Source of the DNA: Acidobacteriota bacterium
Lineage (GTDB): Bacteria; Acidobacteriota; Vicinamibacteria; Fen-336
DNA length: 64,000 nucleotides
Assembly (NCBI GenBank): GCA_011526565.1
Contig: WYBL01000009.1
Location: forward strand, 1 to 64,000
Direction: 5' to 3'
The translations under genes and the position numbers were made by a program. Each line of letters opens with the position of its first letter. Position 1 is the stretch's first letter. The notes below the pieces were generated by a model. It was not told where the DNA came from, did not search any database, and saw nothing but the letters and a program-made list of their open reading frames with translations. Below, piece by piece: positions 41,687 to 45,069 of this stretch.

Positions 41687-42526
41687 TCAGTCGCCGAGCT
41701 CGAGGCGGCGCCGCAGCGCCGGCAGCGCGGCGGTCGGCCCGCGCCACTCCAGCTCGTCCACCGAGTCGAAGACGGGCACGTCCGTGCGCAGCGTGGCGAG
41801 CCGGCGGAACAGCAGCGCCTGCTCGCGCTGCGACCGCAATGTCGCCGCCAGCGCCTCGGCCCGGGCCAGCTTGAATCCCCACTCGCGGTGGTCGTCGGGG
41901 ATCGCCTCGAGCCGGCCGAAACGGGCCAGCACGGCCGCCGCCGACTTCGCCCCCCAGCCCGGCAGCCCGGGGAAGCCGTCCGCGCTGTCGCCCACGAGCG
42001 CGAGGTAGTCGGGGATCGCGGCCGGCGGGACCCCGAACTTCGAGACGACCCCGGCCTCGTCGCGCACGGTGCGCCGCATGCGGTCGAACTGGACGACCCG
42101 CGTGCCCTGCACGCACTGCGCGAGGTCCTTGTCGGGCGTGCAGATCACCACCTGCTCGACGCGCGGGTCGCGAGCGGCCCTCGCGGCGGCCGCGGCCAGC
42201 GCGTCGTCCGCCTCGAACTCGACCATCGCCCACGTCTTCACGCCCCACGCCACGAGCCCCTCTTCCAGCAGCGGGAACTGCGCCCACAGCGCCGGGTCGA
42301 TGCCTTCGCCGGTCTTGTAGCCCGGCCACAACTCGTTGCGGAACGACTCGATCACATGATCGGTCGCCACCCCGACGTGCGTCGCCCCGTCCTCGACCAG
42401 CCGCCGGATCGAGTGCATCACCCCCCGCACGGCGGCGATTTCTTCACCCTCCCGGTTCTTCGCGGACGGCATCGCGTAGAAGTGCCGATACAACTCGAAC
42501 GTCCCGTCGACGAGGTGGACCTTCAT
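41687..42526 (-). CDS. stand-alone 5'-3' exonuclease of the Pol I/FEN family
   Basis: 279-residue PIN/FEN-type nuclease resembling the 5' nuclease domain of DNA polymerase I without the polymerase. Seen: MKVHLVDGTFELYRHFYA (first metal Asp), VEFEADDALAAAAA (EADD cluster), VVICTPDKDLAQCV (TPDKD) and the helix-three-turn-helix LVGDSADGFPGLPGWGAKSAAAVL with further aspartates. It would process flaps or RNA primers. The start ATG overlaps the stop of a tiny upstream reading frame. A separate Pol I is not in the window. Confidence 0.9.
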   Translation of the reverse strand: MKVHLVDGTFELYRHFYAMPSAKNREGEEIAAVRGVMHSIRRLVEDGATHVGVATDHVIESFRNELWPGYKTGEGIDPALWAQFPLLEEGLVAWGVKTWAMVEFEADDALAAAAARAARDPRVEQVVICTPDKDLAQCVQGTRVVQFDRMRRTVRDEAGVVSKFGVPPAAIPDYLALVGDSADGFPGLPGWGAKSAAAVLARFGRLEAIPDDHREWGFKLARAEALAATLRSQREQALLFRRLATLRTDVPVFDSVDELEWRGPTAALPALRRRLELGD

Positions 42527-42591
42527 GGGCGGCGGCTATGGCCCGGGCCGCTGCTGTCGCCCTTCCTCGCTGCCGCCTTCCGCTTGGCCAT
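42523..42591 (-). CDS. possible 22-residue basic peptide upstream of the exonuclease
   Basis: A short frame starting at ATG 42591 encodes MAKRKAAARKGDSSGPGHSR plus two residues, strongly Lys/Arg-rich, and its stop overlaps the exonuclease ATG (ATGA). Only a weak GGGG precedes it. It could be a leader that couples translation, or an accident of high GC. No homologue is recognised. Included because it fills most of the 118-base gap between the exonuclease and four-helix-bundle genes. Confidence 0.25.
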   Translation of the reverse strand: MAKRKAAARKGDSSGPGHSRRP

Positions 42592-42644
42592 GGGAGCCCC
42601 GATCTTGCCGCCCCGTCGCCGGAACGGCAAGGAGTTGGGACCCG

Positions 42645-43004
42645 TCACCGCGCGTGCTTCCTCCAGAGACCCGTCGTGGTCTGGACGACCCGGACCAAAA
42701 TCTGCCGAGCCTCGGCCACTTGCATCGCCCTGCGCGAGTTCACGGCCAGCAGGTCCAGGATCGCCACGCACTCCAGCGCCGAGCCCCGCGCCATCGCGAA
42801 GAAACGCGCCTGGTCCTTCCGAGAGGTCCGCCCGACGCCTTCCGCCAGGCAGAGCACGATCGAGGACGACGCCCGCCGAAGCTGATCGCCGAGACCGGAG
42901 CCATGCGGAGCCAGCCCGTCCGCAAGCTGGGAGAACTGTCGGGCCAGCCGATACGCGTCGAGCTGATCGAGCTGGGTCGTCACCGAGTTCGTGCTGTGCG
43001 CCAT
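42645..43004 (-). CDS. four-helix-bundle protein (S23/IVP, Avd-like fold)
   Basis: 119 residues. LDAYRLARQFSQLADGLA opens the fold, followed by GDQLRRASSSIVLCLAEGVGRTS (LRRAS-S-I-NIAEG is the family signature) and KDQARFFAMARGSALECVAILDLL. These small pentameric nucleic-acid-binding proteins occur in 23S rRNA intervening sequences, as stand-alone genes, and as Avd in diversity-generating retroelements. No reverse transcriptase or rRNA is present here. ATG at 43004 has an ideal GGAGGTGA Shine-Dalgarno, but that site lies inside one arm of an 83-bp palindrome, and a large hairpin array lies further upstream. The gene-array pairing may be functional. Confidence 0.85.
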   Translation of the reverse strand: MAHSTNSVTTQLDQLDAYRLARQFSQLADGLAPHGSGLGDQLRRASSSIVLCLAEGVGRTSRKDQARFFAMARGSALECVAILDLLAVNSRRAMQVAEARQILVRVVQTTTGLWRKHAR

Positions 43005-43005
43005 C

Positions 43006-43088
43006 GCGTCACCTCCTCGGCGGGGCTGCTGGCCCCGCCTTCGCAGAAGGAGGCGGGGCCAGCAGCCGTACTGGCGAGGAGGTGACGC
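43006..43088. repeat. 83-bp composite palindrome covering the ribosome-binding site
   Basis: Outer arms GCGTCACCTCCTCG (43006-43019) and CGAGGAGGTGACGC (43075-43088) are exact inverse complements. Inner arms of 17 bases (43024-43040 and 43051-43067) are also exact, enclosing a small CCTTC/GAAGG loop stem (43038-43050). The outer left arm, read on the minus strand, carries the GGAGGTGA that serves the four-helix-bundle gene, so folding the mRNA would sequester its ribosome-binding site. Equally, it could be a DNA operator bound by a dimeric protein. Confidence 0.85.
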
Positions 43089-43205
43089 GCTGCAGCCGCG
43101 TTCGAGGACGGCCGGGCACGGGTCGTGACAGCGCGAACCGTGGCCCGTCGCGCTGGCGCGAGCCGTGCAGGACAACCGCGAACGACCGCAGGGACTCGTG
43201 TCGTT

Positions 43206-43580
43206 TTCGAACCAACGGAGCGCCGGAGTTCCGACGCTCCGCCAGCTCGAGCCGGCGGTCCGTCGGGCAGGTAGCGGACCGTTGGTTCGAACCGGCGCAG
43301 CGTCCGCTAGCCCGACGCTGCGTTCGCTCGAGCCGGCGCGGCGCTGGTCAGCCGACGCCGCGTTGGTTCGGACCGGCGCGCCGACTGCTGGCCGGCGGCG
43401 CGCTGTTCGAACCGACGGAGCGCCGGGATTCCGACGCTCCGCTGCTCGAGCCGGCGGTCCGTCGGCAAGACATCGGACCGTTCGTTCGAACCGGCGCAGC
43501 GTTCGTCAGCCCGACGCTGCGTTCGCTCGAAACCGGCGCGGCGACTGTCAGCCGGCGCCGCGTCAGTTCGAAACGGCCGA
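43206..43580. repeat. array of nine ~40-bp hairpin units in ~200-bp higher-order repeats
   Basis: This 582-base gap between prfA and the four-helix-bundle gene holds nine inverted repeats starting at 43216, 43256, 43296, 43337, 43377, 43416, 43455, 43495 and 43537 (spacing 39-42). Seven-base stems are, in order, CGGAGCG, CGGTCCG, CGCAGCG, CGCGGCG, CGCGCCG, then CGGAGCG, CGGTCCG, CGCAGCG, CGCGGCG, each followed by its exact complement after 11-13 bases. The first four types recur after 199-200 bases with identical stems but changed loops. Linkers of 13-15 bases are themselves palindromic and largely alternate between GTTCGAACCGG-like and GCTCGAGCCGG-like. A possible decayed unit lies at 43131-43153. 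Not a CRISPR. Function unknown. Confidence 0.9.
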
Positions 43581-43586
43581 AACGGC

Positions 43587-44660
43587 CTAGCTCTTCAGCC
43601 GCTCCGCCTGGTCGAACGCGATCAGCGCGTCGAACACCTCGTCCATGTCGCCGTCGAGGATGGCCTGCAGGCGGTGGATGGTGAGCCCGATGCGGTGATC
43701 GGTGACCCGGGCCTGCTGGAAGTTGTAGGTCCTGATCTTCTCGCTGCGGTCGCCGCTGCCGACCTGGCTCTTGCGGTCGGCCGAGATCTTCTTCTGCTGC
43801 TCCTCGAGCGCGATCTCGTACAGCCGTGCCCGCAGCACCTTCATCGCCTTCTCGCGGTTCTTGATCTGGCTCTTCTCGTCCTGGCAGGAGACCACGAGAC
43901 CGGTGGGGAGGTGGGTGAGCCGCACGGCCGAGTAGGTCGTGTTGACGCTCTGGCCGCCGGGCCCCGACGAGCAGAAGGTGTCGACCCGGATGTCCTTCTG
44001 CTCGATCTTGACGTCGACCTCTTCCGCTTCCGGCAGCACCGCGACGGTGATCGCGGAGGTGTGGATGCGGCCCGAGGCCTCGGTCTCCGGCACCCGCTGC
44101 ACGCGGTGCACGCCGCTCTCGTAGCGCAGCTTGGAGTAGACCCGATCGCCTTCGACCATGGCGATCACTTCCTTGATCCCGCCGGAGGCGGACGGGCTCG
44201 AGGAGACGACGTCGACCTTCCAGCCCTGGCGCTCGGCGTAGCGCGAGTACATGCGGAACACGTCGCCGGCGAAAAGCGCCGCTTCTTCTCCGCCGGTGCC
44301 GGCGCGGATCTCCAGCAGCACGTTCTTCTCGTCGTTGGGGTCCTTCGGGATGAGTTGGACGCGGATGTCCGCCTCGAGCTGATCCCGCTTCGCCTCCAGC
44401 GAGCGGACCTCTTCCTGCGCCATCTCGCGCAGTTCCGGGTCGGTCTCCGCCTTCGCCATCTCCTGGCACTTGACGATCTCGCCCAGCACCGACTTGTAGT
44501 CCCGGAACAGCGTGACCACCGGCGTCAGGCCCTTCGTCTCCTTGGCCAGCTTCTGCCAGGCGGACGGGTCCTGGGCGACGGCGGGATCCGCCATCTGCTC
44601 CTCGAGGGAGCGCAGGCGGTTCTCGATGTCGCGGAGCTTCTCGAAGGTGAGGGGGTCCAT
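43587..44660 (-). CDS. prfA: peptide chain release factor 1
   Basis: 357-residue RF1. Seen: the GGQ loop in [17 protein letters not shown], the RF1-type anticodon-reading tripeptide as PET in [17 protein letters not shown] (P-x-T distinguishes RF1 from RF2's SPF), and [12 protein letters not shown]. It terminates translation at UAA and UAG. ATG at 44660 follows rpmE by 32 bases; rpmE-prfA order is common in many bacteria, usually followed by prmC, which here lies 8 kb away. The TAG stop borders the hairpin array, whose transcription as a prfA 3' extension is plausible. Confidence 0.97.
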
Positions 44661-44692
44661 GGCGATCGGCCCGGGCCCGCGGGGGTCTGCCC

Positions 44693-44917
44693 CTAGGCCT
44701 CCGCCTTCTTCGCGGTCGCCTTGCCGTAGCGCTTGTTGAAGCGCTCGACGCGGCCGGCGGCGTCGATCAGCTTCTGCTTGCCCGTGAAGAACGGGTGGCA
44801 GGACGAGCAGATCTCCAGGCGCAGTTCGGGCGCCTTGGTGGAACGCGTCATCCAGGTGGCGCCGCAGGCGCAGTGGACCTTGACTTCGGGGTACTCGGGG
44901 TGGATGCCAGCCTTCAT
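44693..44917 (-). CDS. rpmE: 50S ribosomal protein bL31
   Basis: 74 residues beginning [19 protein letters not shown]. Four cysteines (HCACG and CSSCHPFF) form the zinc-binding site of the C+ type bL31, with the signature [20 protein letters not shown]. It sits at the subunit interface of the ribosome. ATG at 44917 has GGAAG four bases upstream. It is divergent from the DUF1800 gene across 152 bases in which I see GC-rich inverted repeats (GGCCATCGGGCC) but no convincing promoter pair for either side. Confidence 0.97.
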
Positions 44918-45069
44918 CGCTCTTCCTTCCGCGCGGCGTACCGCACCGGCCATCGGGCCGGCGGGCGGGCGCCGCAAACACGAAAGGATAGCAGAGAACG
45001 GGCGCGCGGCCGCTTCAACCTCCGCCCCCGGTTTCCGGTCCAATATTCGCGACTGCTCCCGGAGGCCCC

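Follow-up and report, generated by a model that had tools for sequence, protein, structure and literature searches.

The 64,000-nucleotide stretch of Acidobacteriota DNA analysed here (positions 1 to 64,000 of contig WYBL01000009.1, hereafter the window) carries on its minus strand, just behind prfA, an array of nine phased hairpins followed by a structured leader and by a gene encoding a four-helix-bundle (4HB) protein. The reading that we favor, to which we assign a probability of roughly 55%, is that the array represents the repeat part of a 4HB repeat element of the S23/IVP type, whose insertion separated prfA from the gene formerly following it, and that the 4HB protein acts on the folded repeat units. 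The comparisons within the genus concern three genomes of Vicinamibacteria, namely that of the window (G000), G001 and G002, all of which are incomplete draft metagenome-assembled genomes (MAGs).

The array occupies positions 43206..43571 of the minus strand, its sense being assigned from the strand of the 4HB gene, and its nine hairpins, 26–27 nt long with stems of 7 bp (locally 8–9 bp), lie across 43216-43562: A1 (CGGAGCG/CGCTCCG, 43216..43241), B1 (CGGTCCG/CGGACCG, 43256..43281), C1 (CGCAGCG/CGCTGCG, 43296..43322), D1 (CGCGGCG/CGCCGCG, 43337..43362), E (CGCGCCG/CGGCGCG, 43377..43402), A2 (43416..43441), B2 (43455..43480), C2 (43495..43521) and D2 (43537..43562). The units, spaced by 39–41 bp, start with TCGA or TCGG at 43207, 43247, 43287, 43328, 43368, 43407, 43446, 43486 and 43527, and a closing TCGA is found at 43568. 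An earlier note, made from the sequence alone, had described nine 7-bp stems following one another in the order A-B-C-D-E-A-B-C-D; the order is correct and the hairpins are far beyond chance, since the phased chain, counting a weaker hairpin at 43181 together with the nine, is ten hairpins long, whereas among 20 order-3 Markov copies of the window no chain exceeded four. The alternation of TTCGAA and CTCGAG linker cores that it reported holds largely, with two exceptions (TTCGGA and CTCGAA). The z-score of the array for RNA folding is −5.9, which beats all 100 shuffles, and on the window contig the array model R2 has matches solely at 43206..43571. That the array is an assembly artefact, which in the note's view would have refuted its reading, is ruled out because the congeneric G001 possesses behind prfA an orthologous array with the same stem types, made of five units in the order A-B-C-B'-D; a contig break falls inside this array, which may be longer.

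The array does not qualify as a CRISPR (clustered regularly interspaced short palindromic repeats) array, in that the stems differ from unit to unit, the linkers are palindromic and the A–D copies recur, instead of near-identical repeats alternating with unrelated spacers of constant length. A scan of 42000-45000 against Rfam gave nothing above gathering score, the only sub-threshold matches being to miRNAs. Finally, no attC-like core of the integron type was noticed at the array, an integrase not having been searched for.

The constraint on the stems is manifest in the way in which the repeats diverge. As the note had remarked, the two copies of A–D have identical stem bases and differing loops: 0 of 56 core stem bases differ, and when the extended stems are counted the differing sites amount to 1/60 in the stems, 10/44 in the loops and 6/55 in the linkers (stem vs loop, Fisher p=0.0007). 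The same pattern is found in two duplicated arrays of contig C67 of G000, where the differing sites are 21/58 in the loops and 2/74 in the stems (p=6e-7), both stem differences constituting one compensatory pair. Perfect 7-bp stems occur in 46 of the 56 units obtained by taking every TCGA-bounded unit of 35–44 nt in the arrays, as opposed to 2% of shuffled units. In 13 two-unit segments, hand-picked and aligned on a structure derived from the same sequences, 98.9% of the cells are paired and 32 cells are changed on both sides, the unit covariation being 0.491 versus 0.093 in shuffles (a value reached by none of 500), and slid controls do not exceed 56% pairing. The premise that the stems are selected is thus supported by compensated stem changes, by free loops and by the recurrence of the pattern in an independent duplicated array, and the covariation at homologous loci, whose lack the note would have counted against the structure, is present. 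On the other hand, the “phased operator array” that it also envisaged finds no support, since the central stem triplets vary freely yet stay complementary, and a sequence-specific operator is rejected for this reason. The duplicated C67 arrays lie at L058 3700-5700 (G000 C67:27.4-29.5k), where a gene that we take to be Fic-like is found between two diverged copies of one array as if it were cargo; a single array is found at the corresponding gene boundary in G001 and G002.

On the strand of the gene the order is prfA (43587..44659, minus strand), hairpin array, leader hairpin, hairpin sequestering the ribosome-binding site (RBS) and 4HB gene, the element starting a few nucleotides past the prfA stop codon. 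The leader consists of structure I (43100..43184, minus strand), a long covarying hairpin with conserved GCACG..CGCGCC..GUCACG..CGUGC, defined by alignment A1, covariation and model R1, and of structure II (43002..43092, minus strand), a long hairpin in which the RBS of the 4HB gene, GAGGAGG, pairs with CCTCCTC. One common leader stands upstream of the type I 4HB genes (alignment A1); with compensatory double changes in 10 pairs (e.g., UA:7 CG:7 in the RBS stem) and with G·U pairs tolerated, it is clearly an RNA structure, and model R1 scores strongly in the genus alone, adjoining 4HB genes. The 4HB gene (42645..43004, minus strand) encodes 119 amino acids matching PF05635 (23S_rRNA_IVP, E=3.9e-15) and TIGR02436 (E=1.5e-14), the closest solved structure being 2GSC, i.e., XCC0516, a locus name of Xanthomonas campestris.

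The window element is located between prfA and a 5′-3′ exonuclease gene. Because relatives have directly 3′ of prfA a gene that we read as prmC from its QHLTG and IPRPET motifs, and because G002 has prfA without the element, the latter is an insertion at prfA common to G000 and G001. To speak of a “structured RNA after prfA,” as the note did, is misleading inasmuch as prfA is just one insertion site, the same arrays standing behind other genes and prmC standing there in relatives. A stretch starting downstream of the 4HB gene (42530-42645 in the window) is common to both genomes; in G001 (L064) it runs on into a gene which presumably is the type I restriction gene hsdM, and the window sequence jumps instead to the exonuclease gene, which suggests a deletion.

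The linkage of array, leader and gene recurs throughout the genus. Matches to PF05635 number 12 in G000, 7 in G001 and 8 in G002, and by our tally 10 of the ~17 strong R2 array loci in these genomes adjoin a leader and seven are solo, some of the latter then carrying a fragment of the leader start. TCGA-linked arrays stand 5′ of a leader in G000 (the window, C51/C70 and C67, the 4HB gene being truncated in C67), in G001 (C30/C32, C15:313k and C15:477k) and in G002 (C17, C73 and C207); the C51/C70 contig ends carry the leader sequence that begins C60/C65. TCGA units are also found 3′ of the 4HB gene at L053 and L063, and 20-bp TCGA units at C149/C29 and inside C67. R2 matches at E<1e-6 are confined to the three genomes, and the search of related genomes that the note had advised yielded no match below E=1e-3 in 18 other relatives; a single-protein scan of genome contigs returned genus members only. 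Weak DNA matches, from other genera and in two cases from G001 (L008, L010-L014, L017, L018), are not accompanied by phased TCGA arrays and seem to be chance matches to coding or GC-rich sequence. Since contigs often end in or beside arrays and leaders (C51, C70, C60 and C65 in G000; C30/C32 and C38 in G001; C67, C207 and C7 in G002), the number and length of both are probably underestimated.

Other designs coexist with the TCGA arrays. A second array type, in which CCGCCCCGACC/GGTCGGGGTG takes the place of TCGA between hairpins of similar period, is located close to type II 4HB genes and in some cases directly adjoins a TCGA array; it occurs at L151 (G000 C67:66.9-67.1k), at L009 and at L052/L062 upstream of these genes. 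Type III 4HB genes (L055, L065, L074) are preceded by ~6-bp GGGACC/GGGATC repeats and by a leader of like design and different sequence. Two distinct 4HB paralogues, each with its own leader, are also placed tail to tail (L052 184-856, L062 3995-4666).

The association between 4HB genes and short repeats is general. The comparison set consisted of 81 other 4HB genes from four phyla, i.e., 69 loci of the class and 12 plasmid-borne genes. Tandem repeats with a period of 5–10 bp are present within 320 bp of the class genes upstream in 58 cases, downstream in 56, on at least one side in 65 and on both in 49; they are 7–9-bp repeats, with a period that is mostly 7, and they cover 14–24% of the 200 bp closest to the gene and no more than ~4% of the sequence beyond 300 bp. 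The two arms correspond to each other: the upstream and downstream periods agree in 48 of the 49 loci with both arms, an inverted 10-mer is common to both flanks in 63/69 loci versus 9.8 (maximum 17) with shuffled partners, and 7-bp units are identical up to rotation across the gene in 23/38 cases versus 1% in cross-locus comparisons. The two arrays are usually reverse complements of each other and, on the strand of the 4HB gene, the upstream arrays are G-rich (48/58) and the downstream ones C-rich (44/56). Between orthologues 70–80% identical in protein the units differ, each matching its own partner array. As to the plasmid-borne genes of Cyanobacteriota, Gemmatimonadota and Bacteroidota, repeats of ~7–8 bp are nearby in 12/12 and an exact inverted match of 11–25 bases is present in 11/12; some plasmids of cyanobacteria carry 4HB genes, flanked by heptamer arms, within CRISPR operons (L158, L168, L165), in the arrangements cas6-4HB-cas4 (twice) and cas10-4HB-cmr3. 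The 40-bp hairpin unit of the window is a genus-specific form of these class-wide repeats. Solo 7-bp arrays numbered eight across seven 4HB-bearing genomes (400 kb sampled) and zero across five 4HB-free genomes (likewise 400 kb), and none of the eight had a 4HB gene in its 20-kb stretch. The contrast is suggestive of a trans association of heptamer arrays with the presence of 4HB.

In the mechanism that we propose, the 4HB protein would be made under the control of its own leader, through the RBS hairpin, would recognize the folded repeat units as structure rather than as sequence and would act on them in trans. Repeat arrays and full elements would thereby spread and stay together, as REP (repetitive extragenic palindromic) sequences rely on RAYT (REP-associated tyrosine transposase), with strand exchange or copying being supplied by host functions; the latter are proposed because neither a reverse transcriptase (RT) nor a Y1 transposase was found. 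By analogy with the intervening sequences (IVSs) of rRNA, elements sitting behind stop codons in operons may have their RNA hairpins cut by RNase III with little harm to the host. Among the possibilities mentioned by the note, that of a target for the adjacent 4HB protein is the one favored by the comparative evidence, in that arrays adjoin 4HB leaders at several genomic places; binding as such is only predicted.

The likeness to REP sequences and their mosaic clusters (BIMEs, bacterial interspersed mosaic elements) concerns the clustered short palindromic intergenic units, the existence of gene-bearing and solo copies and their limitation to gene-bearing genomes, whereas the partner protein is a 4HB and the unit measures ~40 bp with TCGA linkers. 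Membership in the RAYT/REP system is rejected, for Y1_Tnp (PF01797) has no match in the three draft genomes, control genomes being positive. A retroelement driven by an RT is also unsupported: RVT_1 (PF00078) is without matches in G000 and G002, the two drafts searched, and by our tally the distribution of RTs does not follow that of 4HB genes (RT in 28/82 4HB+ vs 14/44 4HB− genomes). Avd of the diversity-generating retroelements belongs to the same 4HB superfamily, and an Anabaena 4HB matches the Avd model weakly, below cut-off; unlike Avd, the window protein has no match to this model and no RT accompanies it in G000 or G002.

Several elements weigh against the reading that we favor. Binding, transcription and mobility are predictions from sequence, and the RNase III step is conjectured purely from the likeness to rRNA IVSs. 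Some 4HB genes of the genus (L050; L053 upstream) are without an upstream array, and the window array stands on one side of its gene only, the class pattern being two inverted arms. The deviations among the 392 array-stem pairs are 1 G·U, 6 A·C and 7 others, several inherited from one change, so that RNA as the acting form of the array has no G·U signal behind it and pairing in RNA only is unsupported; because G·U is almost absent, the pairing may operate at the DNA level or involve both strands. The absence of RT and Y1 transposase comes from incomplete MAGs, the RT search covering two of the three. Finally, the eight-versus-zero comparison of solo arrays is small and clustered, relies on stretches picked by contig availability and does not separate cause from correlation.

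Could the element simply be an intergenic IVS, whose hairpins act only as RNA and are cut by RNase III to release the 4HB mRNA from the host transcript, with no action of the protein on the repeats? The window protein belongs to the same family as those of the rRNA IVSs, which are stem-loops around an S23 open reading frame (ORF) excised by RNase III, e.g., in Coxiella burnetii (PMC4990558). Furthermore, the leader forms a covarying RNA structure that sequesters the RBS, the inverted arrays of the class enclose the ORF like the stem of an IVS, and the elements follow the stop codons of operon genes (prfA; cas6-4HB-cas4; cas10-4HB-cmr3). The strong hairpin-forming sequence accompanying a PF05635/TIGR02436 gene, regarded as selfish in 23S rRNA, is common to both, but the window element lies outside rRNA (the Rfam scan of 42000-45000 having found none), has a nine-unit 5′ array instead of one enclosing stem (enclosing repeats being found in most class relatives) and adds a conserved leader and an RBS hairpin, and solo arrays exist. 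This explanation is in our opinion unlikely, considering that ORF-less solo arrays persist in 4HB-bearing genomes, that G·U is nearly absent from the array stems and that the ORF is not enclosed by the window array.

It seems quite improbable that the arrays are a mutational by-product, in which complementarity results from slippage and hairpin-templated (quasipalindrome) correction, no selection being needed, and the repeats are found beside 4HB genes owing to an insertion preference. Template-switch correction is an established mutational mechanism of which perfect complementarity with few G·U intermediates is the expected outcome, and the units change fast from one orthologue to the next, although those on either side of a gene match each other. 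However, correction should not slow the divergence of the arms, and slowed divergence is what the stems show (0/56 core and 2/74, against 10/44 and 21/58 in the loops), nor does it account for repeats being tied to one protein family in four phyla. Autoregulation without mobility would have the 4HB protein bind the hairpins as 5′ UTR (untranslated region) sites and thereby control the expression of its own gene and of the upstream operon. It would fit the RBS hairpin and an array that precedes the gene and shares its strand, but is very improbable given that TCGA units are also found past the gene (L053, L063) and as solo arrays, and that genes lacking an upstream array (L050, L053) still have the conserved leader.

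A tentative extension of our reading, for which the odds are clearly against rather than in favor, is that the 4HB/S23/IVP genes of at least four phyla constitute the protein part of a repeat system making or maintaining short tandem arrays in trans without an RT or a known transposase; the heptameric simple sequence repeats (SSRs) of many bacteria and the 40-bp array would be its products and the 23S rRNA IVSs its rRNA-resident members. The SSRs of Xanthomonas and Nostoc (PMC4692102, with 70 and 75 convergent repeat pairs in two Xanthomonas genomes), the TAACTGA heptamers of Beggiatoaceae (PMC4679880) and the short tandemly repeated repetitive (STRR) sequences of cyanobacteria are likewise intergenic 7-bp tandem arrays, often convergent inverted pairs in Xanthomonas; the arrays of the genus differ from them in having 20- or 40-bp units. 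Neither PMC4679880 nor PMC4692102 mentions S23, intervening sequences or helix bundles. No publication linking S23/4HB genes to these repeats was found by a search that did not extend to preprints and most subscription journals, so that the novelty of the link is not proven.

The repeat partner offers a testable handle on the 4HB proteins, a widespread family said to be of unclear function; the window array represents a striking variant whose hairpins, conserved in structure and variable in sequence, provide defined binding substrates. One and the same hypothesis may thus address the function of S23/IVP proteins and the role of the heptamers in Xanthomonas, Nostoc and Beggiatoaceae, described as open; it asks which nucleic acid the protein would bind and whether the turnover of the repeats would stop upon its loss.
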